Positions 545 through 16,380 of a stretch of DNA of 22,394 nucleotides are shown here, in pieces (the first letter of the stretch is position 1; each line of letters begins with the position of its first letter). The notes beneath the pieces are model-generated. The model was not told where the DNA came from. It searched no databases and worked only from the letters and a program-made list of their open reading frames with translations. The position numbers were made by a program, and so were the translations under genes. Origin of the DNA: a virus; IMG/VR virus record IMGVR_UViG_3300037168_000132, positions 1 through 22,394 of that record. The stretch is one strand, 5' to 3'.

Positions 545-545
545 C

Positions 546-1037
546 GTGGCCTGGACCGAAAGCGGCCTGTTCTACCCGAGCTTGCGGGACCTGCTCAAGG
601 GCGCGCTGTCCTCGGTCAGCTGGGTGACCACCACCAACAAGATCTCCCTCGCCAGTTCCAGCGCCACCCCGGACTACTACGGCACCACCGACCCATCCAC
701 CTGGTCGAACACCGCCGAGTGCACCGGCACCAACTGGGCAACCGGCGGCATCGCCTACTCCGCAGCGGCCTCGGGAGCAGCCTCAATCCTGCCCACCCTG
801 ACGCACACCGGGCCAGGCCCGACGCTGCTCAACTACGGCGCCCAGAACATCGCCGTGGCCACCACCACGATCTCTACCGCCGCCTACGGGGCGTACCTGT
901 ACGCGGCAGCACAAAGCCCGGCGGCCCTGATCGCCGGCATCTGGTTCGGCGGCACCGGGTACACAACCGTGGCGGGCACGTTCGCAATCGCCTGGGGCGG
1001 CCCCAACATCATCGCCACCATCAGCTGCGCGGCGTAG
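546..1037 (+). CDS. Small virion-associated protein of an actinophage structural family (163 aa)
   Basis: A GTG start lies 1 nt after the upstream stop. The N-terminus MAWTESGLFYPSLRDLLKGA, a central Ser/Thr/Gly-rich part with a GTNWATGGIAYS segment, and a C-terminal IWFGGTGYTTVAGTFAIAW strand region match, from memory, a small beta-rich protein commonly encoded among minor tail genes of actinobacterial phages (usually starting MAWTESG and ending in a similar GTFTIxW strand). It has no signal peptide; the Ala-rich stretches are beta-like rather than membrane-spanning. It is the first of four consecutive genes that look like tail fibre or receptor-binding components. The exact virion location is unknown. 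Confidence 0.65.
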   Translation: MAWTESGLFYPSLRDLLKGALSSVSWVTTTNKISLASSSATPDYYGTTDPSTWSNTAECTGTNWATGGIAYSAAASGAASILPTLTHTGPGPTLLNYGAQNIAVATTTISTAAYGAYLYAAAQSPAALIAGIWFGGTGYTTVAGTFAIAWGGPNIIATISCAA

Positions 1038-1040
1038 CCG

Positions 1041-2537: not shown

Positions 2538-2538
2538 C

Positions 2539-4551
2539 ATGGCCATCGACAGCCAGCCGGTTCTGGCCAACAGTTTCGCGGGCGAGACGAACGGCGCTAC
2601 CGTGGCCCAGTCCGCTGCGCCCGGATACCAGTCGCTGGGCACAGCGGACGGGATGCTGTTCGACGCGGTGTCAATCACTTCCGGCCAGGCGATGACGTAC
2701 GACAGCACGGTTGTTTCCGGCATGACGCTCGCCAAAATCGTCACTACCGCAACCACGCCCTGCTACGGCGGGTGGGCGTCGTCCGGGCTGCTGACCAACG
2801 CCGCCACTCAGCAGTGGTTCCGGCTGTTCCTGTACCAGACCGCGAACCCGTCCTCCGCGCATCAGGTGTTCGCGTTCGTGGTCTCCGGCACCCGCGCCGC
2901 TGACGTGATGATCAACACCAACGGCACAATCAGTGTCCGCAACACCAGCGGCAGCGTCATCGTCACGACCACGAACACGGTCCCCTTGAATCAGCTGTTC
3001 CGCATCGAGGGCTATGTCACCAGCTCGGCGACGGCTGGCCAGGTTGAGCTGCAACTGTTCAGCAGCCCATGGTCGTCCGCACCCACCGAGACGCAGACGT
3101 CCAATGCGCTCCAGAACACCCTGGGCGGTGCGCTGAATACCGCCAGGTTTGGTGCGGCGACCGGTACCGTGTCCGGGCTCACCTGGTGGTATGGCGGGTG
3201 CGCTGTATCGGTCGCGGGGTATATCGGCGCGGGGGCGGTCGTACAGCAGATGACCTGCGGGGCGCCTGCGCCGTCTGGGTTCACCGTGATCTCCAAGCCG
3301 ACCGGCGGCACGTCGCTGCGGCTGAAAGTGGCCACCAACTCCGGGCTCACCACAGGTGTTATTTACGTCGTGGCGCAGGCCCCGGATTCCTACGGTTACG
3401 TCAAGCACGTGGTGACCGGCCTCGCCCCGTTCACCCGCTACTGGTGCCAGCTAGCCGACACGCCGCCGGGCGGCGCAGAGATGCTCGTCGGCAATGTGGG
3501 CACGTGCAAGACGCTGGCCACGCCAGGCACCCCGCAGTCCTTCACGTTCGCTGTCGCGAGCTGCGTCAATACCGCGTACGAGACGCCGGGCCCGGACACC
3601 GGCCTGAACGACTGGATCGCATGGCAGCCAGATCTGGCAATCTTCACTGGGGACTACGGCTACCAGAATCCCACTTTCACCGACCAGCCCAGCCAGGTCG
3701 GCACCTGGGAATACCACACCTGGTTTTACGGGATGGAGCCGATCACCCGGCAGGCGTGGGGCTATTACTGCCGCAGCAACCACGACAGCACGTCGGACAC
3801 CTACAACTGCGACACCGATAACACCTGGGCTGCGGCTAACCTCGTCGCGGCGCAGGAAATCTTCCCTCAGGGTGCACTCGGCGACGCGGTGAACAGCCCC
3901 GTGCATTCGCTGTGCCAGACGTGGGTGACCGGCCGGGTCCGGTTCATCATGCTCGACATCCGCAACGTCGACCGGAGCCCGGGGACGAATACCGACAACT
4001 CCTCCAAGACGATGCTTGGCGCTACCCAGCTGGCGTGGCTGAAGGCGCAACTGCTCCAGCCGGAACCCGTGAAGATCATCATCACGGATACGCAGTGGAT
4101 GGGGAACACCGTCCCGTCGCTCGGCGCGGACCCCGAGCTGGGCAAATGGTGGAGCTACCAGACAGAGCGCACGTCGATCGTCAGCTACATGACCGGCAAC
4201 TGGGCGCAGCTGCGGAATATCGTGCTGATCCACGGTGACTTCCACGGTGTCGGCGTTGCCTACGCGGCTGAGAACACGTGGGGCGGATTCCCGGTCTACT
4301 CCGCGGCACCACTGCGGCAGACCGGCGCTGCGACGATCGCCGCGGGCACCTTCAATCGCTACTACAACAACGCCGGCGGGGAGTGCCGCCAGTACGGCCG
4401 GGTCAGCGTCACCGACACAGGCGGCAGCACGATCACCGTGAACTACCAGGGCTGGGACGCGGTTAATCAGGTCGCCCAGGTCAGCCAGACCGATGTCTTC
4501 AACGTAGCTGCCGGGAACGTGCCCGTTCGCAGCCTGATGGGAGCCCTGTGA
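2539..4551 (+). CDS. Tail protein with C-terminal PhoD-like metallophosphoesterase (670 aa)
   Basis: The start is the ATG 1 nt after the fibre stop; an earlier in-frame start at 2500 lies inside the fibre gene. Residues 1-225 are a beta-rich domain like those on phage tails. About 235-330 resemble the Ig/FnIII-like domain preceding PhoD catalytic domains (IYVVAQAP, then YWCQLAD). From 335 to about 640 lies a PhoD-type phosphatase/phosphodiesterase: FAVASC (C342), FTGDYGY (D372, Y373), RSNHD (N414, H415, D416), then IITDTQWMG and HGDFH (D567, H569) as the last metal site. Bacterial PhoD proteins hydrolyse phosphodiesters including wall teichoic acid. Unlike secreted PhoD there is no Tat signal, which fits delivery on the virion. 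Inferred role: cutting a phosphate-containing cell-wall polymer during adsorption. Confidence 0.8.
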   Translation: MAIDSQPVLANSFAGETNGATVAQSAAPGYQSLGTADGMLFDAVSITSGQAMTYDSTVVSGMTLAKIVTTATTPCYGGWASSGLLTNAATQQWFRLFLYQTANPSSAHQVFAFVVSGTRAADVMINTNGTISVRNTSGSVIVTTTNTVPLNQLFRIEGYVTSSATAGQVELQLFSSPWSSAPTETQTSNALQNTLGGALNTARFGAATGTVSGLTWWYGGCAVSVAGYIGAGAVVQQMTCGAPAPSGFTVISKPTGGTSLRLKVATNSGLTTGVIYVVAQAPDSYGYVKHVVTGLAPFTRYWCQLADTPPGGAEMLVGNVGTCKTLATPGTPQSFTFAVASCVNTAYETPGPDTGLNDWIAWQPDLAIFTGDYGYQNPTFTDQPSQVGTWEYHTWFYGMEPITRQAWGYYCRSNHDSTSDTYNCDTDNTWAAANLVAAQEIFPQGALGDAVNSPVHSLCQTWVTGRVRFIMLDIRNVDRSPGTNTDNSSKTMLGATQLAWLKAQLLQPEPVKIIITDTQWMGNTVPSLGADPELGKWWSYQTERTSIVSYMTGNWAQLRNIVLIHGDFHGVGVAYAAENTWGGFPVYSAAPLRQTGAATIAAGTFNRYYNNAGGECRQYGRVSVTDTGGSTITVNYQGWDAVNQVAQVSQTDVFNVAAGNVPVRSLMGAL

Positions 4552-6140
4552 GCCTTAAAACCTTCACTGTGCCACCGGACACGCGCATGGTCGGCAGCGG
4601 TGACCCGCCCGTCGACATGGACGACCTGATCGACACAGTTAACGCGATGGGCGCGACCACGAACGTCCTGAACGCCGCCTATGCGGGCGGCGCCGACGCC
4701 AGCGGCGCCGCGGACTCTTCCGCCGCCTTCCAGGCCGCCGTGGACGTTCTCGGCGGCAATCCGGGTGTCGTCCGCGTCCCGGCCGGCACGTACAAGATCG
4801 CCAGCACCGTGACCGCCTCCAATCCGGGGCAGTACTTCGTCGGTGACGGCCGGTGGGCGACGATCATCAACTCGTACGTGACCGGCGACTGCCTCCGCGC
4901 CTACACGACCAGCAACTATTCAGGCGGCGGCGGCGGTGTGGCCGGTGGCGGGATCAGGGGCCTCACGGTCGACGGCACGAACGCGGGGGCGGGCTCGGCG
5001 GGCATCCACGTCGGGGACCTGTACAACTATGAGTTCGACTGCGGGGCCCGCCATTTCCAGGGCACCGGCTCGAAGAATTTCTGGTTCGACAACAACTACG
5101 CCGTCAACGGCATGGAGATGATAACCGGCCGGATCTGGGCAGAGAACGGCACCACTAATGTCCAGTTCGACGTCAACGCGGCCAGCGGCTACACCCCATC
5201 CGGGTCTTTCGACCGCGCGAATCTGAAGATCTTCCTCGACGGCAAAGGCAAAGGCAACCTCGTCGTCCTGAACAACGGCGCTTACATCGTTGACGGCGAC
5301 CTGGGCATCTACGGCAACACCGACTACGGGTCAGCGGAGTACTGGGTCCTGACCCTGACCGGGCCATCGGGGCTCTCGTTCACCGCCACCAACGCGAGCC
5401 CGTGTGTGTTCACCGCGTCCGGCAGTGCCTTCTTCAACGGCAACGCCGTCACCCTGTCCGGCGCGTCGCTCCCCACGGGGTTCACTGCGGGCACGACGTA
5501 CTACGTGGTGGCCGCGTCAGGGACGACGTTCGAGCTGAGCGCGACCTCCGGCGGGTCGGCGATCAACTCGACGTCAACCGGCTCGGGAACCGTCCAGGCC
5601 GTGCAGCGCTCCGAAATCGGCAACAGCGTCCTGAACATCGGCGTCGAATGCAACGGCACCAGCGGCACGCAGCCCGGCACGATCAGCTTCGGGACGACCG
5701 GGACAATCGGGAACCAGATCAACCAATGCCGGGGCGTCATCGACTTCTCCGGGAATAACCCGTTCGCCGGGTCCAACAATGCCCAGTCGTTCATCTTCGA
5801 CGGCCCGGTGTACGGCGATAATAAGCTCCAGCCGGCCGGGCCGCTCGGCCTCTATCCGTACAAGGCCGGGGCGCTGTCCAGCAGCGGGACGATCCCTACG
5901 AAGTTTCAGGCAATGACCGAGGTCACCACCAGCGGCAACGTGACCGGGGTCATTCTGGATGGCTACCCGCCGGACAACTGGCGCCTGATCTACGTCATAA
6001 ACGACGGGACCGGCACCATCACCTTCGCCGGGTCCGGGACCTCCAACGTGGCTAACGGCACCACGTGCGTGATCCAGCCGAACACCTGCCAGGGGTTCAT
6101 CTGGAATAACGACCTGTCGCTATGGTTCCCGACGGCCTGA
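4548..6140 (+). CDS. Right-handed beta-helix tail protein, pectate-lyase-3-like (530 aa)
   Basis: The GTG overlaps the preceding stop in a GTGA junction. Residues 1-45 are an N-terminal attachment segment. From about 48 the pattern DSSAAFQAAVDVLGG followed by VVRVPAGTYKI is the hallmark entry of phage tailspike and pectate-lyase-type beta helices; the coils continue to about 265 (GIRGLTVDGTNAGAG, then NFWFDNNYAVNGMEMI). A separate beta domain (about 266-349; FTAGTTYYVVAASGTTFELS) is inserted, followed by more helix coils and a C-terminal domain from about 434 (GLYPYKAGALSSSGTIP, ending LSLWFPTA) that may trimerise. No catalytic residues can be assigned. Likely a polysaccharide-binding or depolymerising tailspike partner of the PhoD protein. 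Confidence 0.75.
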   Translation: MSLKTFTVPPDTRMVGSGDPPVDMDDLIDTVNAMGATTNVLNAAYAGGADASGAADSSAAFQAAVDVLGGNPGVVRVPAGTYKIASTVTASNPGQYFVGDGRWATIINSYVTGDCLRAYTTSNYSGGGGGVAGGGIRGLTVDGTNAGAGSAGIHVGDLYNYEFDCGARHFQGTGSKNFWFDNNYAVNGMEMITGRIWAENGTTNVQFDVNAASGYTPSGSFDRANLKIFLDGKGKGNLVVLNNGAYIVDGDLGIYGNTDYGSAEYWVLTLTGPSGLSFTATNASPCVFTASGSAFFNGNAVTLSGASLPTGFTAGTTYYVVAASGTTFELSATSGGSAINSTSTGSGTVQAVQRSEIGNSVLNIGVECNGTSGTQPGTISFGTTGTIGNQINQCRGVIDFSGNNPFAGSNNAQSFIFDGPVYGDNKLQPAGPLGLYPYKAGALSSSGTIPTKFQAMTEVTTSGNVTGVILDGYPPDNWRLIYVINDGTGTITFAGSGTSNVANGTTCVIQPNTCQGFIWNNDLSLWFPTA

Positions 6141-6157: not shown

Positions 6158-6400
6158 ATGAGCCAGTATCTGACGTCCTCGGTCCCCGGCAAGGCTGTAC
6201 CCGGGTTCGTTCCCGGCCGGCTTACCGGCATAGGCACGTCAGCCACGGCCACGCCGGCCATCCTGCGTGCTGTTACCACGATGCCGCAGGTCCTCGCAGG
6301 GATCGCGCAGCAGGGCAAGGCCGCCGCCGCCGTCACCCAGCCGTACAGCGCAGCCTGCGCCGTCACCCAGCCGTACAGCGCGACCGCAGGAGTGAGCTGA
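6158..6400 (+). CDS. Small unknown protein with duplicated VTQPYSA motif (80 aa)
   Basis: It starts 17 nt after the beta-helix gene and its TGA shares a base with the ATG of the next gene (TGATG). The N-terminal part (MSQYLTSSVPGKAVPGFVPG) is Gly/Pro/Ser-rich; the C-terminal third carries AVTQPYSAA and AVTQPYSAT, encoded by a 23-bp direct repeat. There is no signal peptide or membrane helix. I do not recognise it. The packing between tail fibre and connector genes supports a virion or assembly protein. Confidence 0.5.
   Translation: MSQYLTSSVPGKAVPGFVPGRLTGIGTSATATPAILRAVTTMPQVLAGIAQQGKAAAAVTQPYSAACAVTQPYSATAGVS
6329..6381 (+). repeat. 23-bp direct repeat, two copies 30 bp apart
   Basis: The two copies lie at 6329-6351 and 6359-6381 and share the core GTCACCCAGCCGTACAGCG. 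The spacing of 30 bp (ten codons) keeps the frame, so the repeat gives two copies of the peptide AVTQPYSA at the end of the 80-residue protein. Confidence 0.9.
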
Positions 6401-7323
6401 TGACCGCCACCGTTTTCTACGACAACGCCAACGAGATCGCGCAGCTGACGGTCACGTTCACCTCCAGCGGAAGCCCGGCCAATCCGACCACCGTCAGCCT
6501 GGTCGTCACCGACCCGTCCGGCACGCAGACCACCTACACCACCAGCAACGGGATCACCCAGAGCGGCATGGGCATCTACACCGCTGCCATCACCTGCCTG
6601 CCGGCGCTGACCGGGGTCGACGGGCTGTGGAGCTACGTGTGGATCGGCACCGGAGCGGTCTCCGACGTTCAGCCGGGGACCTGGCGGGTGCTGCCCACCA
6701 CGATCGGCACCTGGTACATCGGCCTGGACGAGTTCAAGGACCGGCTGGGGATCACCGACGCCGCGGACGACTCCCAGGCGCAGATCGCCATTCAGACAAC
6801 TGCCCAGTGGATTAACGAATATACGGGGCGCCATTTCAACAGGGTCACTGAGGTGCGCACTTACGAACCTACCAATATATGGGTGCTGAATATTGACGAT
6901 CTGGTGAGCGTGACGGCGGTCAATCTGGACCCGAACGGAAATGGCGTCTTCAGCCAGGCCCTCGTGCAGAACGTCGACTACGAGCTGCGGCTCGGCGACG
7001 GGCTGTACAACGTCAACGCCACCGGGATCGCCCGGCCGTACCGGCAGCTCCAGATCATCCAGACCGGCAACTGGTTCCCGTTCACCTGGCCGTACTCCCG
7101 GCTGGACCGGGTGCAGATCATCGGGACCTGGGGCTGGAGCAGCGTGCCGCCGCCGGTCACCCAGGCCAATTTCATCCTGGCCGCCGACCTGTTCAAGATG
7201 AAGGACGCGCCGTTCGGCGTGGCCGGGGTCTCCGATCTGGGCGTGGTCCGCATTCAGTCCAACCCCTGGCTGACGGAGATGCTGCGGCCCTACATCAACC
7301 CCCGGCGGAAGGTGGGCGTGTGA
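6400..7323 (+). CDS. Ig-like domain fused to gp6-like head-tail connector (307 aa)
   Basis: Residues 1-100 form an Ig-like beta sandwich (TVFYDNANEIAQLTVTFTSS, VSLVVTDPSGT, GLWSYVWIGTGAVSDVQPGT). From about 105 the protein switches to a helical connector fold: WYIGLDEFKDRLGITDAADD, then IAIQTTAQWINEYTGRHF, which is the usual start of gp6/gp15-type head-tail connectors, followed by strands and a late helix (ANFILAADLFKMKDAPFG) and the end of the protein (SNPWLTEMLRPYINPRRK). In siphoviruses this protein forms a ring below the portal. The TGATG junction at its start and a shared base at its end couple it to both neighbours. The next expected gene, the tail terminator, lies about 8.6 kb away, which is unusual. 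Confidence 0.75.
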   Translation: MTATVFYDNANEIAQLTVTFTSSGSPANPTTVSLVVTDPSGTQTTYTTSNGITQSGMGIYTAAITCLPALTGVDGLWSYVWIGTGAVSDVQPGTWRVLPTTIGTWYIGLDEFKDRLGITDAADDSQAQIAIQTTAQWINEYTGRHFNRVTEVRTYEPTNIWVLNIDDLVSVTAVNLDPNGNGVFSQALVQNVDYELRLGDGLYNVNATGIARPYRQLQIIQTGNWFPFTWPYSRLDRVQIIGTWGWSSVPPPVTQANFILAADLFKMKDAPFGVAGVSDLGVVRIQSNPWLTEMLRPYINPRRKVGV

Positions 7324-7427
7324 TGCGCTTTGTCCTGACCACGGCGAGCTGCGCGCCGCTGATCCCCACCGACAACCTGCGCGCCGGCAAAGGCGGGGGC
7401 AAGGGCGGGGGCAAGGGCCGGTTATGA
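7323..7427 (+). CDS. 34-aa Gly/Lys-tailed mini-protein
   Basis: The ATG at 7323 shares its A with the TGA of the connector gene, and its TGA overlaps the ATG of the next gene (ATGA), so the ORF fills the gap exactly. The product begins MRFVLTTASCAPLIPTDNLR and ends in a basic run, AGKGGGKGGGKGRL. The penultimate codon is TTA, one of very few in-frame TTA codons in the window. The overlap at both ends argues that it is translated. It might be a basic nucleic-acid-binding or virion-stabilising peptide, or merely a coupling peptide; no family is recognised. Confidence 0.5.
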   Translation: MRFVLTTASCAPLIPTDNLRAGKGGGKGGGKGRL

Positions 7428-8077
7428 CCGTCGCGCCGAAGAAAGCGGCGAAAAGCCCAGCGCAGGCCAAGGCCGCCCTGGCGTTCGCGGCCGGGGGCCG
7501 GGCCGCGCAGGCGAAGGCGAAGGCCAAAAACGGCGGCAAGCCCAGCAAAGCCCAGCACGCGGCCGGGCTGAAGTGGGCCGCCGCGGGCCGGGCCAGCCAG
7601 GCACGGGCGAAGGCAGCCGCCAAGGCGGGCAAGAAGGCGCCGGTAAAAGCGAAGAAGGCCGCGCTGCCAGTTAGCCAGTCCACCTGGACCGGGCCGTCGC
7701 TGTGGCTGCCCGGCTGCAATGCGGAACGGCCGACCTGCATCGTCACGGCCATCGCCAACCACCTGCTGGCCGCGACCGGTGTGCAGGCCAGCGACGCCAG
7801 CATTCTGGAGCTGCACGAGCGCGCGGGCGGCGACGGCAGCGCGACCATCGCCACCGTGCTGGAGGCTGCCGCGGATTACGGGCTGGCCGGGCAGCTGCTG
7901 GAGAAGTTCGGGCCCGGTGACCCGGAGGGGGTCGTGCCGGGAGTGATTTACGGCGTGACGATGCGGCGCGGCTATCACGCGGTGCTGGCGCATCCATACG
8001 GAATGGTGTCCTGGGGCTGGGTGATGGCCTGGTCCGGGGAGCCGCAGGAGGCATGGGAGCTGCAATGGGTCACCTGA
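7424..8077 (+). CDS. Lys/Ala-rich tail fused to C39-like cysteine peptidase fold (217 aa)
   Basis: Residues 1-80 are almost entirely Lys, Ala, Gly and Arg (PKKAAKSPAQAKAALAFAAG, then ARAKAAAKAGKKAPVKAKKA), like histone H1-type or nucleoid-associated tails. From about 90 the layout matches a C39/papain-type fold: a Cys before a helix (C98 or, more likely, C105 in PTCIVTAIANHLL), helices LELHERAGG and TIATVLEAAADYGL, then a His in GYHAVLAH (H185) ahead of a strand. A third catalytic residue cannot be fixed. No signal peptide is present. It could process a virion protein, act on the wall, or be a non-catalytic relative; the basic tail might bind DNA or anionic wall polymer. Confidence 0.55.
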   Translation: MTVAPKKAAKSPAQAKAALAFAAGGRAAQAKAKAKNGGKPSKAQHAAGLKWAAAGRASQARAKAAAKAGKKAPVKAKKAALPVSQSTWTGPSLWLPGCNAERPTCIVTAIANHLLAATGVQASDASILELHERAGGDGSATIATVLEAAADYGLAGQLLEKFGPGDPEGVVPGVIYGVTMRRGYHAVLAHPYGMVSWGWVMAWSGEPQEAWELQWVT

Positions 8078-9099
8078 CGGAACAGCCGGGCGGAACCCCC
8101 GGGGAAGACACCCCAACCGGAATCGGCGTGTACCGCACCGCAAGTCCCGGCCTGGCCGCGATACAGGCGTACGAATCGTTTCTGGGCCTGCCGGAGGGCG
8201 CGACCGTCAATCACGTGCTCGCGTTCATGACCGACATGTCCGACAAGAGCGCCACCTGGGCGGCGTTCGAGGGCGCGATGCTCCAGGCCAGCACGAACGC
8301 CGCGGCCGGGACGCACAGCGCGATTGAGTGGGCACCACTGCTGGGCGGCCGGAATCTGATCCTGGCCGTCCCTGCTTGCTGCGGGGGCACCACCTGGGCC
8401 GATGAGGCAGCCGGGGCCAACGACATGCACTGGGCGAAGCTCGCCAATACGCTGGTCGCGGGCGGGCTCGGCGGCTGCACACTGCGGATCGCCCGGGAGT
8501 TTTCGGGCGGCTGGTACCCGTGGTCGGTCACCCCCGCGACCGCCGCCGCGCACAAGACTGGCTGGGCCCGGATCGTCACGACCATGAAGGCGGCTGGCTT
8601 TACCGGCCGGTTCATGTGGAACCCGTATCTGGGCCAGGGAACTTTCGCCCCGGGCGGTTACCCTAGCGACGCCTATCCGGGCAGCGCCTACGTCAATGTG
8701 ATCGGGCTCGACTTCTACGACTGGGGCTACCCAGCACAGCCGGACACCGAGGCGCGGACCACCGCGCAGCAGCAAGCCGCCTGGAACGTCATCCGGGACC
8801 AGCTGGCCGGGCTGACCGGCTGGCAGAGTTTCGCCACCCGGGCCGACATCAGCCGGCCGCTGGCCTACCCCGAATGGGGCTTGCAGATCTGGGGCAGCGG
8901 TGCCACCTACGCGGGCGGCGGCGACAATCCGGTACTGATCAGCGAGATGGCCGCCTGGATCAAGTTCACCAGGCCGTGGATGCACGCGCTGTGGGAGGAC
9001 GCCGGGGTGGGCGTGTCCGACCCAGACGACGACCCGGACCGGATCATTGCCGTCCCGAAGGCGCGGGCCGCGTTCCTCGATGCGTTCGGCTATGGCTGA
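8053..9099 (+). CDS. GH26-like glycoside hydrolase (348 aa)
   Basis: A TIM-barrel glycosidase. The start could be ATG 8053 (AGGAGG only 1 nt upstream) or the in-frame ATG 8065, better spaced from GGGAG at 8055-8059. After a strand-1 motif (VNHVLAFMTDMSD) come IAREFSGGWYPW with Glu149 as likely acid/base, VIGLDFYDWGYP, and YPEWGLQIWG with Glu274 as likely nucleophile; this spacing and context match GH26 mannanase/glucanase-type enzymes. The protein lacks a signal peptide, so it is either virion-borne or released by lysis. It overlaps its upstream neighbour by 25 nt and the following membrane gene by 8 nt. Substrate unknown; a capsule or wall glycan is likely. Confidence 0.7.
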   Translation: MGAAMGHLTEQPGGTPGEDTPTGIGVYRTASPGLAAIQAYESFLGLPEGATVNHVLAFMTDMSDKSATWAAFEGAMLQASTNAAAGTHSAIEWAPLLGGRNLILAVPACCGGTTWADEAAGANDMHWAKLANTLVAGGLGGCTLRIAREFSGGWYPWSVTPATAAAHKTGWARIVTTMKAAGFTGRFMWNPYLGQGTFAPGGYPSDAYPGSAYVNVIGLDFYDWGYPAQPDTEARTTAQQQAAWNVIRDQLAGLTGWQSFATRADISRPLAYPEWGLQIWGSGATYAGGGDNPVLISEMAAWIKFTRPWMHALWEDAGVGVSDPDDDPDRIIAVPKARAAFLDAFGYG

Positions 9100-9547
9100 G
9101 CTAACGCAGACGCCTGCACCCGTCCCGGCCACGCTGAGCCGGCTGGCCGTGTTCGGGTCGGTGGACGGCCTCACCCTGTTCCTGGGGCTGACCATCGGGC
9201 TGATCGTGGCACGGCAGGGGCATCAGGCCATCTGGCACGCGGCTCTTGGCGGCGCGGCCGGGGAGCTGGTCGGGATGACCGCCGGGCAGCACCTGTCCGA
9301 CCCTGACTCCGGCTGGCGGGTAGCTATCGCCTGCGGGGCCGCGTCCGGGCTGGCCTGCGTGCTGCCCGCGTTCCCGTACCTGGCCCTGACCGGGACCGTC
9401 GCGCTGGGCGCCGGGCTCGGTATCGCTGCCGGGGTGGCTGCCGTGATCACCTGGCTGCGGCCGGAACGCGGGATCAGTGCGATCGTGCGGACTTACGGCA
9501 TCCTGATCGCGGCCGGGCTGCTGTCCGGATTGTCCGGGCTGATCTGA
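9092..9547 (+). CDS. VIT/CCC1-like membrane protein (151 aa)
   Basis: The ATG at 9092 overlaps the glycosidase stop; a longer in-frame start at 9047 lies inside that gene. Four or five hydrophobic segments are visible (VDGLTLFLGLTIGLIVA, IWHAALGGAAGELVGMTAG, VAIACGAASGLACVLPA, LGAGLGIAAGVAAVITW, GILIAAGLLSGLSGLI). The first two, with VDGLT and GELVGMTAGQHLS, resemble the start of vacuolar-iron-transporter family proteins (usually VDGL, then GEYVS), but the acidic metal-binding loop is largely missing. Directly downstream of a glycosidase and upstream of two more small membrane proteins, it could work as a holin-like or accessory lysis protein rather than a metal transporter. Confidence 0.6.
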   Translation: MAELTQTPAPVPATLSRLAVFGSVDGLTLFLGLTIGLIVARQGHQAIWHAALGGAAGELVGMTAGQHLSDPDSGWRVAIACGAASGLACVLPAFPYLALTGTVALGAGLGIAAGVAAVITWLRPERGISAIVRTYGILIAAGLLSGLSGLI

Positions 9548-9564
9548 GGGGAGGGCGGCTGCCG

Positions 9565-9948
9565 ATGCGCCACTCGCGCTGGCTGATACCGGGCGTCATT
9601 AGCGCCGTTATCGTTCTGATCTGTGTCCTGGTGGTCCCGCACGGATTCATCCACCTGTTCGGCATCGACACCCAGCAGAGCGACAACTACGACTTCTGGT
9701 CCGGGGTCGGTCCTGTGCTGGTCACCGCGATCGGCCTGTCCACGCTGATCGCCGGAGCATGGCATCACCTGAATTGCCACACTGACAGCTGCCTGCGTAT
9801 CGGCCGGTTCCCGGTTGCGAACGGCTCATTCAAGGTGTGCAGCAAGTGCCATCGCGCGATCACTGGGCATCCCAGCAAGCTGACCATTGAGGTGCTAAGC
9901 GCTGAGCACCGGCTGCACCCGCGGCATCAGGACACGGATTCGCCGTGA
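9565..9948 (+). CDS. Two-helix membrane protein with zinc-type C-terminus (127 aa)
   Basis: Preceded by GAGGGGAGGG about 10 nt upstream of the ATG. Two membrane helices are clear (VISAVIVLICVLVVPHGFI and VGPVLVTAIGLSTLIAGAW), followed by a cytoplasmic-type tail with HHLNCHTDSCLRIGRFPVA and VCSKCHRAITGHP, a Cys/His pattern typical of a small metal-binding or treble-clef-like motif. Proteins of this layout (two helices then CHxxxCxRxGRxPV...CxxCH) are, from memory, common near lysis genes of actinophages. The 3' end overlaps the K+ channel gene by 4 nt (GTGA). Possible holin or membrane-associated accessory protein; the function is not shown. Confidence 0.6.
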   Translation: MRHSRWLIPGVISAVIVLICVLVVPHGFIHLFGIDTQQSDNYDFWSGVGPVLVTAIGLSTLIAGAWHHLNCHTDSCLRIGRFPVANGSFKVCSKCHRAITGHPSKLTIEVLSAEHRLHPRHQDTDSP

Positions 9949-10286
9949 GCCATCGCGGCGCGCTCATCACCGTCGCCGCGGCAGGAATTCTGGACGTGGC
10001 CGGCGGGCTGGCTTTCGCCGCGGCTGAGCACATTCCGTACGTCACCGGCCTGTACTGGGCGCTCACCACGGCGACCACGGTCGGTTACGGGGACGTCATC
10101 CCGCACAAGGCTGCCGGGCACCTGATCGCGGTCGCTGTGATGCTGACCGTCATCCCGCTGTTCGGTGCCACGTTCAGCCTGTTCACCTCGGGAATGACAG
10201 CCGGGCACATCAGGGCATCAGAGGCACGGATCAAGGCTCACGTCGAAGAACGGCTGAAGCATCATCTGAAGACGCCCGGTAGCTGA
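9945..10286 (+). CDS. Minimal two-TM potassium channel (113 aa)
   Basis: GTG start in a GTGA overlap with the previous gene. Order: TM1 (about residues 5-28), a short turret, the pore helix and selectivity filter YWALTTATTVGYGD (TVGYGD at 45-50), TM2 (about 59-83) and a short basic cytoplasmic tail (RIKAHVEERLKHHLK). This is the complete pore module of an Ion_trans_2-type K+ channel and close to the smallest length known for functional channels, as in algal virus Kcv proteins. No regulatory domain is attached. In this context it may depolarise the host membrane during lysis or entry, or alter host physiology in a lysogen; both are inference. Confidence 0.8.
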   Translation: MSHRGALITVAAAGILDVAGGLAFAAAEHIPYVTGLYWALTTATTVGYGDVIPHKAAGHLIAVAVMLTVIPLFGATFSLFTSGMTAGHIRASEARIKAHVEERLKHHLKTPGS

Positions 10287-10376
10287 GGCCCTTACGGAAC
10301 GGTTAAGCGAACCGAAGTCGCCCGGTACCGCGGCAGGCCGTTGGTACGCTGAGCCGACCCAGCCGAGGGAGAAACC

Positions 10377-11324
10377 GTGCGGCGTATGGCATTTGCGATT
10401 GCCCTGTTCATGACGGGGACGGGGCTGCTGCTGACGGGGGCGCTGTCCTCCGCTGCATCCGCGGCTACCGCTGTCACCGGCCCCACGATCAGCGTCACCA
10501 ATCCCGGTGCCCGGTCCTTTGTGACCAGCGCGGCCATCACGCCCGTCACGATAACGGCTGCTGATTCCGCCGTACCCGCGGCAACCTTCACCTTCACAGC
10601 CACCGGCCTTCCGACCGGCCTGGCGATCAGCGCCGCCGGGGTGATCTCGGGTACCCCGACAGTTCAGGGGCCGTTCGCTGCGACGGTAATCGCCACCGAG
10701 GCAACTGGGACCAATGCCGGGATGACCGGAACGGCCAGCTTCACCTGGACCATCACGGCAACAGCAGCAACGCCGCCCGTTACCGGCGCTGGCACGATCA
10801 CCGTCGCTTACCCCGGGCACCGGCACTCCTACATCGCCAGCACCAGCATCCCCCCGTTGCAGATCCACGCAACTGACTCCACCGCGCCGGGAGCAGTCTT
10901 CACCTTCACGGAAAGCGGTCTTCCGCCCGGCCTGATGATCAGCACCTCTGGCCTGATCACTGGTTCCCCGACAACCCCGGGGACGTACAGCGTCACGGTG
11001 ACCGCCGCAACCACACCGCCCGGAGGGGCCACCGCGACCGGCTCGGTCACTTTCCCCTGGACCATCTACACGCTCAGGGCAACGGCGACGCCCACGCCTA
11101 CGTCCAGCGCGACGTCCACGGCAACGGCTCCCGCCGTGACACCCGCCGTGACGCCCACAATCACCACCTCACCCACCGCGTACCCGGTGGGCGGCGTCGT
11201 CACAGGCGGCGGCGGCAGCCTCGGCGGCGGCAGCGCAGCACTGACAGCGGCAGGCGCCGCGCTCATCCTTGCGGGCGCGGGAACCGGCGCTTACGCCATC
11301 CGGCGGCGGGCGCACCGATCCTGA
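10377..11324 (+). CDS. Secreted two-repeat Ig (He_PIG) protein with C-terminal anchor (315 aa)
   Basis: The GTG at 10377 is preceded by GAGGGAGAA, a good ribosome binding site. Residues 1-29 are a signal peptide (basic start, hydrophobic core, cleavage near ASAAT). Two putative-Ig repeats follow at about 38-127 and 138-230, each with the He_PIG core: LPTGLAISAAGVISGTPT and LPPGLMISTSGLITGSPT. A Thr/Pro/Ala linker (230-275) leads to YPVGGVVTGGGG, a hydrophobic helix (AALTAAGAALILAGAGTGAY) and a basic end (RRRAHRS), the layout of a cell-wall sorting signal without a canonical LPXTG. The sortase gene starts 11 nt downstream, so this is its likely substrate: a surface display protein made by the host of this element. 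Confidence 0.75.
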   Translation: MRRMAFAIALFMTGTGLLLTGALSSAASAATAVTGPTISVTNPGARSFVTSAAITPVTITAADSAVPAATFTFTATGLPTGLAISAAGVISGTPTVQGPFAATVIATEATGTNAGMTGTASFTWTITATAATPPVTGAGTITVAYPGHRHSYIASTSIPPLQIHATDSTAPGAVFTFTESGLPPGLMISTSGLITGSPTTPGTYSVTVTAATTPPGGATATGSVTFPWTIYTLRATATPTPTSSATSTATAPAVTPAVTPTITTSPTAYPVGGVVTGGGGSLGGGSAALTAAGAALILAGAGTGAYAIRRRAHRS

Positions 11325-11335
11325 ACAGAAACGGC

Positions 11336-11974
11336 ATGCACGGTAAGCCCCGGCGGCGCAAATGGCTGCCGGGGTGCATCGCGGCGTGCATGGCCCTGGC
11401 GGGCCTCCTGCTGCTGGCAGTCGCGTGCAGCGGGCCCAAGGCGAACGTCAGCACCATCCCGTCATCGGTGGGCACCGCACCACCGTCCCACGGGACAACC
11501 GCGCCTGCTGCCGCTCCGCTGGCCCGGTCCATCCCCGTCAGCATCGCGATTCCTGCTATCGGCGTCAGCGCCCCGGTGATGCAGCTGAGCCAGAACATCG
11601 ACGGGACGCTCCAGGTACCGCCGCTGTCCAACCTCAATCTGGCTGGCTGGTACAAGTACAGCGCGACGCCCGGTCAGAAGGGCCCCGCGGTCATCGCCGG
11701 GCATATCGACTCGACGGCAGGAGCGGCGGTCTTCTATAAGCTCCGGTACCTGACCAGCGGGAACCGGATCGACGTCACCCTCGCTGACAAGCAGGTCGCG
11801 GTGTTCGCCGTGGACGGGCTCCAGCAGACGGCCAAAACCAGCTTCCCGACGAACAGCGTCTACGGGCCGACGCCGGATGCCAGCTTGCGGCTGATCACCT
11901 GCGGCGGCGTTTTCGACAGCGCCACCGGGCACTACCTGAATAACGTGATCGTGTACGCGCACCTGGTGAGCTAG
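11336..11974 (+). CDS. Class F-like sortase (212 aa)
   Basis: Residues 1-31 hold a basic start, a hydrophobic helix and LAVAC (C31), which could be a signal anchor or an imperfect lipobox. A Ser/Thr/Pro linker precedes the sortase barrel from about 65 (IPVSIAIPAIGVSAPVM). The catalytic His is H123 in VIAGHIDS and the nucleophile C189 in LRLITCGGVFD, 66 residues apart as usual for sortases. The segment after the cysteine (FDSATGHYLNNVIVYAHL) has the class F ending but contains no arginine, although sortases use one near here to stabilise the intermediate. It lies directly behind the anchored Ig-repeat gene, which suggests a dedicated sortase-substrate pair. Confidence 0.75.
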   Translation: MHGKPRRRKWLPGCIAACMALAGLLLLAVACSGPKANVSTIPSSVGTAPPSHGTTAPAAAPLARSIPVSIAIPAIGVSAPVMQLSQNIDGTLQVPPLSNLNLAGWYKYSATPGQKGPAVIAGHIDSTAGAAVFYKLRYLTSGNRIDVTLADKQVAVFAVDGLQQTAKTSFPTNSVYGPTPDASLRLITCGGVFDSATGHYLNNVIVYAHLVS

Positions 11975-12066
11975 CGCCAGCAGACCTGCGCAGTTTTACC
12001 GGCGTGGTTACGGAAGGCTCTGCGCCTGATGCTTGCAAGGCGATTTAGTGCCCTGACCACAGGCCC

Positions 12067-12094
12067 GCTGGCACGCTCAGCCTACGGGGCCAGC
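12067..12094. terminator. Possible weak bidirectional terminator between convergent genes
   Basis: A perfect 6-bp stem GCTGGC / GCCAGC encloses a 16-nt loop in the 137-bp gap between the sortase (plus) and lipoprotein (minus) genes. There is no T tract, and the stem is short, so support is mainly positional. Confidence 0.25.
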
Positions 12095-12111
12095 TCATGG
12101 AACGCTCCAGC

Positions 12112-12651
12112 TCACAGACCAACCTTAGCGACGGCGTACGCTGCCTGTGCCGAGGTGAAACCGTTGCCGTAGTCAGACGTGAGCTGCTGGGTCAGGCTGG
12201 CTGCGCTGAATCCGCCCATTTTCATATACCCCTGGGCGGCATCAACGGCCTGAGTATCCCAGTCCGGATTGAGGTAATTGATAGCGAACTGGGCATCTGC
12301 TTGCGAGAACCCGTCGCCATAACTTGAGGTGAGCTGGTGGGCCAGGCTGTACGCAGAGAACCCCTGGCCATCAGAAAGGTAGTTCTGCGCGGCATCGACG
12401 GCTTGCTGCTGGGCCGCAGTTATCGCTGGTGTCGTAGGCGTCGTAGCGACCGGTGCCGGTGCCTGAGTAGTAGCCGGTGTTGTGGGCGACGGAGCCGGCA
12501 TGGCGCCACTGCCAGCGCTGTCACTTACCGGGACACCGTAGTTGGTAGTCGGGTTAACGGGAATTTTGCTGGTGCTGCCAGAACTGCCACACGCGGCCAG
12601 GGCGATAACCGCCGCGCCGATGACGGCCACGAAGCCGGTATCGCGCCTCAC
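12112..12651 (-). CDS. Ltp-family lipoprotein, candidate superinfection exclusion protein (179 aa)
   Basis: A GTG start overlaps the GH16 stop (GTGA). The signal ends in a perfect lipobox, LAAC, with C21 as the lipidated cysteine. A Ser/Thr/Pro linker (22-78) leads to two repeats: AVDAAQNYLSDGQGFSAYSL...AINYLNPDW and AVDAAQGYMKMGGFSAASL...AAYAVAKVGL. These match the host-cell-surface-exposed lipoprotein repeat (Ltp type), whose founding member, from Streptococcus thermophilus prophage TP-J34, blocks DNA injection of superinfecting phages. Repeat signatures visible are A(V/A)xxAxxY, GFS, LxxQLTSxYGxGFxxxxAxxA. As the last gene of the minus-strand operon it would be expressed independently of the structural genes, as expected for a lysogenic-conversion gene. 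Confidence 0.8.
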   Translation of the reverse strand: MRRDTGFVAVIGAAVIALAACGSSGSTSKIPVNPTTNYGVPVSDSAGSGAMPAPSPTTPATTQAPAPVATTPTTPAITAAQQQAVDAAQNYLSDGQGFSAYSLAHQLTSSYGDGFSQADAQFAINYLNPDWDTQAVDAAQGYMKMGGFSAASLTQQLTSDYGNGFTSAQAAYAVAKVGL

Positions 12652-13790
12652 GGGGTAGTCCAGCTCACTGAGTCGACGGTCATGACCGTGGCGGGCAGCA
12701 CCTGGTCAGCCGCCGGGAACGGCACCAGGCCGCCGCCCACCGTGTTCGGGCCGCCGACGCATACGTTCAGGACAATGCCGAGCGGCGTGTCCGGGCCGTA
12801 CGGCCAGATCGCGTTCGGCCAGCCCTTGGCGGCCATGGCCGCGAGCCAGCCAGCCTTGGTGACCGGGCTGTTGGTGTAGGGCACGCCGTCCATGGTGAAG
12901 CTGACCTGATCGTACGTCTCGCTGAGCTGCATCTGGTACGTGTGAAAGGCGTCATCCGCGATCGGCGCGGGCGAGGCGTTCATCGCAGCCTGGGTACCCT
13001 CATAGCCGGCGCCGGCATAGTCCCCGGTGCACCGCAGCCCGAAGACGTTGAAGTAGGCCCGGTCCGGTGCCGTCTTACTGAGGGGCGAACCGCCGAAGTT
13101 CTCCACCAGGTCAAACTCGCCGTACGGCCAGCGCTTGTCGGTGCCGTAACACCAGAGCGCCGGCCAGAAGCCAGATGCCGGATTGATCTTGGCCACCACG
13201 GTGAAGGTCCCGTACGTCGCGGAGAACTGCTGGAAGCCGGGCCGTATCCAGGACCAGAGCGTGTCGTTGCCGTCCGGCTCGGCGAACGTGGTGATCCGGG
13301 CGGACAGGTACCCGCCCGGCGTGGGCGTGATCGTGCTTGCGCCCGCACCGGCCTGCTGCTGGGGCGTCCCGCCGTACGCCTGGACCTGGAAGACCAGCGC
13401 GTTGCTGCCGCCCGCCCCGGCGCCCGCCTGCACGCCCACCACGGCGGGATCGCGGGTGTAAATCTGGCTGCCGCCGGTCGGGTCGTGCCCGTTCTCGGCT
13501 ATCGCCCACTTGGTGCCATCAGGGAGCGCGCCGTCCGGAGTCTGGCTGAAGTCATCGGAAAAGGCAGCCGATGTCACAGGCGCGGGCGTCACAGGCGCGG
13601 GCGTCACAGGCGCGGGCGTCACAGGCGCGGGCGTCACAGGCGCGGGCGTCACAGGCGCGGGAGCGGGCACGGGGCTGCCTCCAGGAAGGTCCGAGGGCTG
13701 GATCTGGGTCCAGCCGGGAACTGCTGTCTTACCGTCCGGGTCCATGTTCAGCCCCCAGAACAGGTTGGCCGGAGTTGGCGGTGTGCTCAC
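12648..13790 (-). CDS. GH16-family glucanase-like enzyme (380 aa)
   Basis: The GTG at 13790 overlaps the GT2 stop (GTGA); longer in-frame starts up to 14303 lie inside the GT2 gene and have shadow composition. Residues 1-40 are MSTPPTPANLFWGLNMDPDG and a short linker, then six PAPVT-type repeats (about 42-73), then the GH16 sandwich from about 75 (AFSDDFSQTPDGALPDGTKW). The catalytic motif is GEFDLVEN (E225, D227, E230), preceded by SGFWPALWCYGTDKRWPYG; the later FHTYQMQLSETYDQVSFTMD segment is also typical. GH16 enzymes hydrolyse beta-1,3/1,4-glucans or transglycosylate them. No signal peptide is visible, which is odd next to a polymer synthase. It probably trims, branches or cross-links the GT2 product. 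Confidence 0.75.
   Translation of the reverse strand: MSTPPTPANLFWGLNMDPDGKTAVPGWTQIQPSDLPGGSPVPAPAPVTPAPVTPAPVTPAPVTPAPVTPAPVTSAAFSDDFSQTPDGALPDGTKWAIAENGHDPTGGSQIYTRDPAVVGVQAGAGAGGSNALVFQVQAYGGTPQQQAGAGASTITPTPGGYLSARITTFAEPDGNDTLWSWIRPGFQQFSATYGTFTVVAKINPASGFWPALWCYGTDKRWPYGEFDLVENFGGSPLSKTAPDRAYFNVFGLRCTGDYAGAGYEGTQAAMNASPAPIADDAFHTYQMQLSETYDQVSFTMDGVPYTNSPVTKAGWLAAMAAKGWPNAIWPYGPDTPLGIVLNVCVGGPNTVGGGLVPFPAADQVLPATVMTVDSVSWTTP
13573..13662 (-). repeat. Six tandem 15-bp repeats encoding PAPVT linker
   Basis: Six head-to-tail copies of GTCACAGGCGCGGGC (plus-strand reading; the last ends in A). Five are identical, which suggests recent slippage or expansion. They encode the Pro/Ala/Val/Thr linker before the GH16 domain. 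Confidence 0.95.
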
Positions 13791-15664
13791 AGCGTGGCCT
13801 CCTCTTTCACGAGCATGTCCCGGGGCGGGACCGTAGTGGTCTGCTGCCGTAGTCTGCGGTGCCGGCCGTGCGCCTGCCAGATTCTGAGCCTTATACCCGC
13901 CGTGCCATACCCGGGCAGCAGCAGTGGCCCCAGGACGATCGCCTGCGCGATGGCCAGCGCCAGCGGAATCCAGTAGGCGGGCAGACCGTAAATCGGCAGG
14001 TCGCGGGCGAGGGCCCAGAACATGAGACCCTGCGTCACGATTACCCAGCCGCGGATAAGAACGGCAGCCCGTACCGGGGTGCGGTTTTTCTTTCCCGTCT
14101 TGCCCCCGGTTGGCACCCAGCCCTGAATCCGGCCGGTGGCCGCGTCCACGCAGGCGAGCAGATGCGCGACGCCGTAGACGACCGACAGCCGCAGCATCTC
14201 CGGCCGCCAGCCGGGAATCATCAGCGGCAGCGCCAGCATCGACAGCATCGCGGGCGCGATCGGGAGGTAGTTCCCGGGGCCGACCTGGAAGGGGTACACC
14301 CACAGCATGATGAGGGCGGGCATAACGCTGATCACGAGAGTCAGCAGCGATTGCAGGTAATACAGAATCCCGGATAGGTAGGCAATCCGCTGGGTGAGCG
14401 TCATCTTGCAGGCCCAGAATCCGCGGTCAGCGCCGTCCATCCCCCGGACGGGGAAGATGAGCCCCAGCGTAGTGAGGCACCACCGGTACTGCTGATTGAT
14501 CACCCCCTTGAACGTATCCGGGCACAGCCCTTTCGCCAGGTTGACCGGGACGTACACCGTCTGCGAGCCCCTGGCAAGCATTTCCACGCTGGTCACCACG
14601 TCCTCCCCGCCCGTCTCGCACCAGGGGAAGCCGCCGATCTCATCCAGCGCGGTGCGCCGGTACAGCACGTTGGTGCCGACGCAGATCGCCGCGTTCCTGC
14701 TCTGCTGGCCTGGCTGGCTCCAGCAGAAGAACATCCCCTGGACCACACCTGACAGCCGGGCGATCCAGTTCACCGTGTCCCTGCGGGTGATGCCGAAATA
14801 CTGCGAGGTCTGCACAATCCCCACCTCGCCATCCCCGAAATACGGGACGGTCTGCTCCAGAAACGACGGAGCAGGAGCAAAGTCAGCGTCGAACACAACG
14901 ACAATCTCACCCTGAGACTGCTTCAGCGCGTTGTTAAGGCCGCCTGACTTCTTCCCCTTCGGCCAGTCATCACGGCGCAGGTAAGTAAGTCCGTACAGCC
15001 CGGCCAGCTCCCGCAGCGATTCGGTGGGTGAATCGTCCAGCGCGTACAGGTTCAGTTCACCGTCCCAGCGAAGGTCGAGCACGTGCTGATAGGTGTTGCC
15101 AACCACGGCCGGGTCTTCCCCGCAGGTAGGAACGAACACGTCCACCGATGGCCGGCGCAGATCGCGCACCCTCAGTGCGTGGGTGTCGATATTAATGGTC
15201 GGCTTCCGCAGCGTCACCACGATCATGTACAGCGTCCACGGGACCATTACCGCCAGCGTGATCAGGAATGGGTACCACACCCAGGATTTGGTGTACACCT
15301 CGTACAGCCCGTACAGGCCGCCGGCCGATAGCAGCGCATACGTGATGGTGAGACTGCGGCGCCACTGGTGCTTGAAGTAAGAGTGGTGCTCATCGTCTTC
15401 CGGCGCGCCCGGGAGCATGTCACCCGATCGGCGGCGGTACATCCCGTACGTAACCGCCTTCGCCAGAACGAAAACAAGCAGCGCCCCGGCCGCGATCACC
15501 AGGGCCTGCTGCATGCCCGGGTAGTGCCACACCACGTCGATGGCCTGCTCCACCACGGACGGCTGGATCAGCCGGTGCGGCGGGAAAAGCCGCTGCTGGA
15601 AAGGCAGGAGCAGAGGTGGCCATTGCCTGCCATACAGCAGTTGCTGCTGAAGAGGCGTACTCAC
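13787..15664 (-). CDS. Processive GT2, cellulose-synthase-like membrane glycosyltransferase (625 aa)
   Basis: The GTG at 15664 overlaps the stop of the 52-residue gene (GTGA). Membrane helices lie at about 51-75, 104-122 and 129-152. The cytosolic GT-A domain starts at VDVFVPTCGEDP (174-185) and carries all processive motifs: DDS (210-212), KSGGLNNAL, DAD (259-261), GED (353-355; the catalytic base is usually TED) and QQYRW (391-395, the QxxRW motif that grips the growing polymer). Further helices follow from about 409 (IAYLSGILYYLQSLLTLVIS). It is closest in layout to BcsA/cellulose-synthase and related beta-glycan synthases. No PilZ domain is seen. With the GH16 gene next to it, it probably makes and exports a beta-glucan-like surface polymer. 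Confidence 0.85.
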   Translation of the reverse strand: MSTPLQQQLLYGRQWPPLLLPFQQRLFPPHRLIQPSVVEQAIDVVWHYPGMQQALVIAAGALLVFVLAKAVTYGMYRRRSGDMLPGAPEDDEHHSYFKHQWRRSLTITYALLSAGGLYGLYEVYTKSWVWYPFLITLAVMVPWTLYMIVVTLRKPTINIDTHALRVRDLRRPSVDVFVPTCGEDPAVVGNTYQHVLDLRWDGELNLYALDDSPTESLRELAGLYGLTYLRRDDWPKGKKSGGLNNALKQSQGEIVVVFDADFAPAPSFLEQTVPYFGDGEVGIVQTSQYFGITRRDTVNWIARLSGVVQGMFFCWSQPGQQSRNAAICVGTNVLYRRTALDEIGGFPWCETGGEDVVTSVEMLARGSQTVYVPVNLAKGLCPDTFKGVINQQYRWCLTTLGLIFPVRGMDGADRGFWACKMTLTQRIAYLSGILYYLQSLLTLVISVMPALIMLWVYPFQVGPGNYLPIAPAMLSMLALPLMIPGWRPEMLRLSVVYGVAHLLACVDAATGRIQGWVPTGGKTGKKNRTPVRAAVLIRGWVIVTQGLMFWALARDLPIYGLPAYWIPLALAIAQAIVLGPLLLPGYGTAGIRLRIWQAHGRHRRLRQQTTTVPPRDMLVKEEATL

Positions 15665-15819
15665 GGTGACGGCGTGGAATAAGCCTGGCACTGGCGGATA
15701 GACGACGGCGGGTGACCGTCGCCTGCTGGCAGGCAAGCGGGCTGCCCGCCCGGGTAAGTCACCACGAACAGCACGATAGTCGCGCCCGCGAGCGCGAGCA
15801 GCAGAATAAGAACCCTCAT
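15661..15819 (-). CDS. 52-aa secreted or membrane peptide, first gene of minus-strand operon
   Basis: The ATG at 15819 has a ribosome binding site (AGGGGGAA on the minus strand, about 11 nt upstream). The product starts MRVLILLLALAGATIVLFVV, a signal or single membrane helix, followed by a short Pro-rich segment with two cysteines (PACLPAG and IRQCQAY). Its TGA overlaps the GTG of the GT2 gene. A longer reading from 15870 exists but lacks support. It could be a small accessory subunit of the synthase or a leader for coupled translation; no family is recognised. Confidence 0.55.
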   Translation of the reverse strand: MRVLILLLALAGATIVLFVVTYPGGQPACLPAGDGHPPSSIRQCQAYSTPSP

Positions 15820-15960
15820 GACACGCGCCGTTCCCCCTGGAGCCAGGCTCCCCACCCGGTCTTCCGGCACTATGCTAGCTGGGGCCGCAACCGGCGTAGT
15901 CTGTGATCACTCAGTAACCTGTGGCCGTCAGGAGCCAGGTCTTTCTGCATTAAGGAAGAC
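15820..15960. promoter_or_regulatory. Divergent intergenic region between minus operon and tail terminator gene
   Basis: These 141 bp separate the first gene of the minus-strand operon from the plus-strand tail terminator gene and must hold the promoter of the minus operon. On the plus strand AAGGAAG at 15953-15959 is close to the ATG at 15961. TATGCT (15872-15877) resembles a -10 element, but I cannot pair it with a good -35 on either strand. Confidence 0.45.
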
Positions 15961-16380
15961 ATGGCGGACATCCTGGCTATCAGAGCCGCGCTAGCTAGCC
16001 AGATCGGCACTCGCACAGGGCTTCGCACCATGGCCGAGGCCCGCGATTCAATCAGCCCGCCGGTCGCGATCGTGCTGCCCGGCCAGCCGCTGGCCAAGTT
16101 CGGCGACACGGTGGACGGCACCCTGACAATCAACCTGATCGTTCTGATCGTCATCTCAGATGCGGCCACATCTGAGCGCACGCAGCGGGCGCTGGATGCT
16201 TACCTGGGTATCGGGTCCGGGGAGACTGAATCCATCCCGGGCGCGATCATGGCTGATCCGACCCTTGGTAGCGCGGTGCATTTCTGCGAACCTATGACCG
16301 TGAGCAACTATGGCCGAATCGATTACGCGGGCGAGACCTACTTCGGCGCCCGGATAAACGTACAGATCGGGGCAATCTGA
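15961..16380 (+). CDS. Tail terminator protein (139 aa)
   Basis: The layout matches actinophage tail terminators: an N-terminal helix (MADILAIRAALASQIGTRTG), the PPVAIVLPGQP segment, strands GTLTINLIVLIVISDAATSE, a helix around ALDAYL, then SIPGAIMADPTLGSAVHFC and a final strand pair containing YGRIDYAGETYFGARINVQI. Proteins of this type cap the tail tube and join it to the head connectors. The start has a strong ribosome binding site and the stop forms a TGATG junction with the next gene. It is preceded by 8.6 kb of cargo instead of the usual connector genes. Confidence 0.75.
   Translation: MADILAIRAALASQIGTRTGLRTMAEARDSISPPVAIVLPGQPLAKFGDTVDGTLTINLIVLIVISDAATSERTQRALDAYLGIGSGETESIPGAIMADPTLGSAVHFCEPMTVSNYGRIDYAGETYFGARINVQIGAI

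Follow-up and report, generated by a model that had tools for sequence, protein, structure and literature searches.

The window, by which we mean the whole stretch of DNA analysed here, is a linear IMG/VR virus record of 22,394 bases. On its minus strand, four open reading frames (ORFs) are joined by three consecutive stop/start overlaps within a cargo island that is flanked by phage structural genes. The features of the locus are listed below.

15819-15661, minus strand: 52-aa ORF, ATG start, one N-terminal hydrophobic helix
15664-13787, minus strand: processive family 2 glycosyltransferase (GT2), predicted; GTG start, 625 aa, BcsA/CesA/HAS-like, without a PilZ domain
13790-12648, minus strand: GH16 beta-glucanase, predicted; GTG start, 380 aa
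12651-12112, minus strand: Ltp-family lipoprotein; GTG start, 179 aa, two PF07553 repeats
15661-15664, minus strand: 4-nt GTGA stop/start overlap between the 52-aa ORF and GT2, read from the sequence
13787-13790, minus strand: 4-nt GTGA stop/start overlap between GT2 and GH16, read from the sequence
12648-12651, minus strand: 4-nt GTGA stop/start overlap between GH16 and Ltp, read from the sequence
7324-15960, both strands: cargo island between head-tail adaptor and tail terminator, holding the minus-strand operon and plus-strand surface-type genes
6400-7323, plus strand: head-tail adaptor, left flank of the island (phrog_442, 2e-30)
15961-16380, plus strand: tail terminator, right flank of the island (phrog_17840, 1.9e-16)
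8053-9099, plus strand: GH26-like enzyme (PF02156, 6.8e-4, just under the cut-off)

The first-pass annotation had described the four minus-strand ORFs, their three GTGA overlaps and their antisense position among phage structural genes, and each of these points was borne out, the flanking genes being those of a head-tail adaptor and a tail terminator. The GT2 and GH16 genes are intact and coupled in one overlapping operon. Operon DNA that is ~100% identical was found in three other IMG/VR contigs (at full length in two and cut by the contig end in one), and the upstream part of the operon was found in two further IMG/VR contigs. One of the contigs with operon DNA comes from a relative that is ~96% identical overall, in which the GT2 part is 99% identical and the 141-base intergenic region is unchanged. 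Given that the same junctions occur in several IMG/VR contigs, an assembly chimera or host contamination was rejected as the source of the operon, and the presence of these junctions in independent assemblies means that the operon is neither a chimera nor a chance arrangement.

The 52-aa ORF is the weakest element of the operon. It had no family match in profile searches, and its comparison with the ~96% identical relative gave three nonsynonymous and zero synonymous codon changes, which are few and not supportive of selection. Because the GT2 start lacks an obvious Shine-Dalgarno sequence, this ORF may be a coupling leader only; the GH16 start is preceded by GAGGAGG. No convincing sigma-70-like promoter was found upstream of the operon in a scan that covers actinobacterial promoters poorly, and no convincing strong terminator was found to bound it, the terminator-like matches falling inside coding sequence. 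The fold of the 3' intergenic region was no better than those of shuffled sequences, and no RNA element or tRNA was found in the window.

The island occupies 8.6 kb between adaptor and terminator. In Rhodococcus phage Madraxi the annotated tail terminator comes directly after the adaptor homologue, and Rhodococcus phage REQ1 has the same gene layout with its genes unnamed. The GH26-like enzyme of the island has no signal peptide and may be a third member of the polysaccharide set; its homologous region in another virus contig (G008, L139) adjoins a GT2/GH16 cluster. Further along the plus strand lie genes for a small two-helix K+ channel-like protein (9945-10286; PF07885, 8e-14), an Ig-like protein with a weak match to a GVDTG sorting signal (10377-11324) and, directly 3' of the latter, a class F sortase that scores above the NCBIfam cut-off (11336-11974). 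From its sequence, the Ig-like protein is a candidate substrate of the adjoining phage sortase; the phage collection yielded no sortase similar to it. Since most of the cargo products look membrane- or surface-related, the island would seem to be a set of envelope genes. Elsewhere in the window, a CgeB-like glycosyltransferase (PF13524; 17558-18604, plus strand) is encoded between the tail terminator and the major tail protein, and the tail-fibre-like region encodes a large protein with a PhoD-like phosphatase domain (2500-4551, plus strand). The host of this uncultured phage is probably an actinobacterium. Neither PF00589 nor PF00239 (integrase) had a match in the phage's largest, incomplete contig (~30 kb), and no repressor was seen there either.

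Predicted activities of the operon products

The GT2 protein matches PF13641 (1.3e-20) and PF13632 (9e-18) and contains the motifs D210/D211, D259-A-D261, E354-D355 and Q391QYR394W395, whose key residues are invariant in an 18-sequence alignment, with D210/D211 nearly so. Its best PDB sequence match is BcsA (8.6e-34), and a Foldseek search with its AF2 model (pLDDT 78) returned BcsA (2e-24) and chlorovirus HAS (3e-11), with plant CesA also matched. A GT-A domain is flanked by membrane helices in the hydropathy profile, as in the BcsA/HAS fold, and the QxxRW motif together with the BcsA-like helices indicates that the protein is a processive polysaccharide synthase of the predicted BcsA/HAS type. 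The sugar and linkage of its product are left unfixed by the sequence. A cellulose synthase proper (the CelA/BcsA equivalog) was rejected, the TIGR03030 score being 152.6 bits (E 1.1e-44) against a cut-off of 699, with no PilZ match in the protein and no bcsB among the annotated neighbours. A known anti-phage defence system was rejected for want of a PADLOC match of weight: no PADLOC defence model matched GT2 or GH16, and Ltp gave only weak, sub-threshold matches to PDC-S02.

The GH16 protein matches PF00722 above the cut-off (1.7e-6). Its catalytic ExDxxE motif reads E225FDLVE230, and the three catalytic positions are invariant in the aligned phage and bacterial relatives, so that the motifs earlier reported as complete in both enzymes are indeed present and conserved. 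The AF2 model matches the endo-beta-1,3-glucanases 2hyk and 3atg (E ~1e-14), and we regard the protein as a predicted beta-glucanase of beta-jelly-roll fold whose model is that of an endo-beta-1,3-glucanase. The domain follows a short N-terminal segment and a Pro-Val-Thr linker. Neither a signal peptide nor a transmembrane segment was found, the hydropathy profile containing no hydrophobic N-terminal stretch; a signal peptide is usual for GH16 glucanases and is not strictly defining.

The two enzymes could also be read as a decorating pair, with the GT2 glycosylating a cell-wall or virion component without polymerising and the GH16 serving as a transglycosylase that joins glucan to the wall. 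The GH16 family includes transglycosylases, weak Kre6/Skn1 matches occur in related GH16s, and a sortase and its candidate substrate are encoded next door; however, QxxRW and membrane helices like those of BcsA point to a processive synthase and the best structural matches of the GH16 are hydrolases, and we consider this reading extremely improbable.

The lipoprotein has a LAAC lipobox at residues 18-21 and two PF07553 repeats (E 2.1e-27), matches phrog_4980, 'superinfection exclusion' (8.3e-35), and weakly matches the TP-J34 Ltp of known structure (4eqq, E 0.004), all of which supports its earlier placement in the injection-blocking Ltp family. The prototype of this family, Ltp of TP-J34, excludes phages by blocking DNA injection via the incoming tape measure protein (PMC3952083), and by analogy the most likely contribution of the window Ltp is an injection block of its own. 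A lipobox, a spacer and two PF07553 repeats are shared with the Ltps of TP-J34 and of Gordonia and Cutibacterium phages (PMC3952083, PMC11480721). The window protein differs from known phage Ltps in being joined to a GT2-GH16 operon, and its repeat domain contains 8 acidic and 2 basic residues, compared with 16 and 12 in the TP-J34 stretch used for comparison.

Recurrence of the GT2-GH16 pairing

Our main finding is the pairing of GT2 with GH16, which recurs in five other virus contigs and in actinobacterial chromosomes. Single-sequence searches returned no genome relatives of the GT2, and an alignment-based search was needed. In a 96-kb virus contig (L019), a GT2 that is 46% identical to that of the window is followed by an overlapping GH16 gene, and a second locus (L117) has the order GH16-GT2-GH16-GT2, followed by GH26. 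In three others the GT2 adjoins the GH16 or is one gene away (L118, L124 and L126, the last with a divergent synthase bearing DAD and QRKRW). By our own count among the matches listed, the pair is present in six of ~14 distinct GH16-bearing virus contigs, the window included; the scans used short patterns that miss distant relatives, and virus contigs are fragments. Upstream of the GH16-GT2-GH16-GT2-GH26 cluster, the 96-kb contig of L117 (G008; 118-2019, plus strand) encodes a TROVE/Ro60 RNA-binding protein.

At least 79 bacterial loci with GT2 relatives were recovered (L020-L098), nearly all from Streptomycetaceae and other Actinomycetota, close relatives included. Among the matches listed, a GH16 domain is encoded on the same strand within 4.5 kb downstream at 44 of the 79, and an AT3-SGNH acyltransferase, often fused to GH16, is encoded there at 48 of the 79. 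These loci contain a widespread, uncharacterised actinobacterial operon of the form GT2 - AT3/SGNH - GH16, which from its gene content is probably an acylated beta-glucan exopolysaccharide system. Literature searches found no paper on the phage GT2-GH16 pair or on the AT3/SGNH-GH16 operon.

The histories of the two partners differ. In the GT2 tree, the window and L019 sequences form a clade (100/100) nested among actinobacterial sequences. In the GH16 tree, the window enzyme joins the GH16 of another phage locus (L116) at 100/100, and not that of L019, and the GH16s of the bacterial operons form a clade of their own. Across the virus contigs, the paired GT2 or GH16 genes are likewise of differing ancestry. 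As the nearest relatives of the window GT2 differ from those of the window GH16, the partners have been re-paired and brought together more than once; the pairing thus recurs with independently recruited partners, both in other phages and in a chromosomal operon of actinobacteria. This re-pairing of independently acquired genes is the best evidence here for one shared polymer, for which it argues at the level of sequence: partners have been exchanged and the pairing kept, and GT2 and GH16 therefore likely act on one polymer. The pairing is not universal, since a set of viral GT2 relatives (L106-L113) lacked GH16 throughout the five contigs that were examined over their full length, and near the remaining loci; no Ltp was found near these GT2s either. 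Several virus contigs thus carry related GT2s alone, which suggests that the synthase can work without GH16.

The same trees bear on whether the operon is simply stray host DNA moved by the phage and functionless for it. The nesting of the GT2 in actinobacterial sequences, the orientation of the operon opposite to the structural genes and the small number of contigs from which the phage GT2 clade is known would all fit such a passage. Against this, the reading frames are intact with their catalytic residues present, the operon is identical in several metagenomes and has been kept in the ~96% identical relative, and the differing nearest relatives of GH16 and GT2 mean that the two did not arrive as a single block from a host operon. 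We therefore regard stray host DNA as very unlikely.

A more serious alternative concerns the GH16, whose nearest relative (L116) comes immediately behind a tape-measure gene within a tail locus; at that locus, a peptidase A4 family protein (4881-5582, plus strand) is encoded right after the GH16 and before a large tail protein. Given the position of this relative, the window GH16 could have had a virion enzyme as its ancestor; combined with the lack of a signal peptide, the same position suggests that the enzyme may do its work from the virion rather than remodel the lysogen surface. Taken further, the GH16 would be a virion-displayed depolymerase that the phage uses on a host-made glucan when entering or leaving the cell and that stands behind the GT2 by chance, the GT2 being independent cargo. 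Its lack of a signal peptide, the tail-locus position of its relative, the short N-terminus and Pro-rich linker that resemble a docking segment (also present in GH16b of L117) and the other phage GH16s without an adjacent GT2 are in keeping with that reading. The GH16 gene, however, runs antisense to the structural genes and has overlaps with both the GT2 and the Ltp genes, and adjacency of GT2 and GH16 in six phage contigs and in bacteria is too frequent for coincidence. Chance placement of a virion depolymerase is, in our judgement, unlikely.

The Ltp gene shows no such recurrence. Among the matches listed, none of the 79 bacterial GT2 loci has an Ltp within 6 kb (0/79); none was found in the contigs of five other phages, four of which have the GT2-GH16 pair, and none around the pair at L124. 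Because it was not found with any other GT2-GH16 pair, Ltp looks like a co-transcribed passenger outside any conserved unit with these genes. The first-pass annotation had proposed synthase, glucanase and Ltp as one system and had suggested looking for their co-location elsewhere. The recurrent adjacency in five other virus contigs and at 44 of the 79 listed bacterial loci upholds GT2-GH16 as a real functional pair; the Ltp part of the proposal found no support in the form given, the gene being absent from those loci.

The system so proposed was a two-level exclusion operating during lysogeny and selected as one unit, in which a polymer masks receptors and Ltp blocks injection. All the genes are within one overlapping operon, the target of TP-J34 Ltp is an incoming phage's tape measure protein (PMC3952083), and hyaluronan on PBCV-1-infected cells inhibits the attachment of other viruses (PMC5408694). 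Yet none of the other GT2-GH16 pairs examined has an Ltp nearby, no integrase or repressor was seen in the ~30 kb of the window phage, and among the large contigs with the pair some likewise show no integrase. A single two-level exclusion system is possible, but the comparative evidence does not point to it, and we consider it quite unlikely.

Proposed function and comparison with known systems

The reading that we favour, with moderate confidence, is that the operon is a phage-borne envelope-modification unit in which a polymer made by the GT2 is cut by the GH16, with Ltp as a separate exclusion protein. During infection or lysogeny, the GT2 would make a beta-glucan-type polymer from host UDP-sugar and extrude it through the membrane, and the GH16 would cut this polymer, so as either to trim or release it or to let particles or progeny pass through. 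The resulting coat would alter adsorption, clumping or protection of the infected cell. Ltp, co-transcribed with the two enzymes, would block DNA injection by incoming phages and would not be needed for the polymer function. Since the pair recurs in unrelated phages, phages probably coat or remodel infected cells with a sugar polymer, by analogy with some algal viruses. One counterpoint to the envelope-modification reading is that the GH16, having no export signal, may fail to reach the extruded polymer until the cell lyses, except if it is carried on the virion. A more elaborate version, a 'coat and private key', would have the synthase coat block rivals, a virion-borne GH16 admit only the phage's own progeny and Ltp stop any rivals that attach all the same. 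We think this distinctly improbable; if true, it would make GT2-GH16 a general phage module that has been repeatedly re-assembled from different partners.

The recurrent pairing points to the uncharacterised actinobacterial GT2-AT3/SGNH-GH16 exopolysaccharide operon, whose GT2s share a clade with the phage GT2s and whose motif-intact GH16 is likewise downstream on the same strand. It differs in having an AT3-SGNH acyltransferase, whereas in the window the GT2 is followed directly by GH16, in the separate clade of its GH16s and in the lack of Ltp. With BcsA and the mixed-linkage and curdlan synthases (BgsA, RiGT2, CrdS), the window GT2 shares the D, D, ED/TED, QxxRW core; unlike the BcsA/BgsA/CrdS type, it is without a PilZ domain and has no partner gene for BcsB or HlyD. 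Among cells, pseudomonads offer a parallel in their GT2-GH17 fusion, in which a synthase is likewise coupled to a glucanase (PMC10237404). Among tailed phages, Synechococcus phage S-CBWM1 provides a precedent with its BcsA-like 'putative cellulose synthase', which differs in belonging to another GT2 branch, in having an HlyD-like (efflux-type adaptor) partner as in bgsBA and in having no GH16 beside it.

The operon would work most like the hyaluronan/chitin synthases of chloroviruses (A98R of PBCV-1 and others), which are virus-encoded processive GT2s. These synthases cover infected algal cells with fibres, and the hyaluronan inhibits the attachment of other viruses at 4 h, its purpose being stated as unknown; chloroviruses also encode a beta-1,3-glucanase (PMC5408694). 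In predicted fold the window GT2 matches chlorovirus HAS; in sequence it is nearer BcsA. The chlorovirus case further differs in its algal host, in the giant size of the virus, in a synthase and glucanase that do not form an operon and in a product that is hyaluronan or chitin. The first-pass statement that no described system has this combination of genes agrees with our literature searches, with the proviso that the surface-polymer synthases of chloroviruses are known (PMC5408694). For chloroviruses, in which reverse genetics was not available, the reason for making surface polysaccharide is named as an open question (PMC5408694); a small phage synthase-hydrolase operon with actinobacteria-related genes could be put to the test in laboratory hosts that are tractable. 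Virus-encoded synthesis of surface polysaccharide is thus already known, and what is found here is its predicted counterpart in tailed phages, in the form of a compact synthase-glucanase operon with an Ltp gene.
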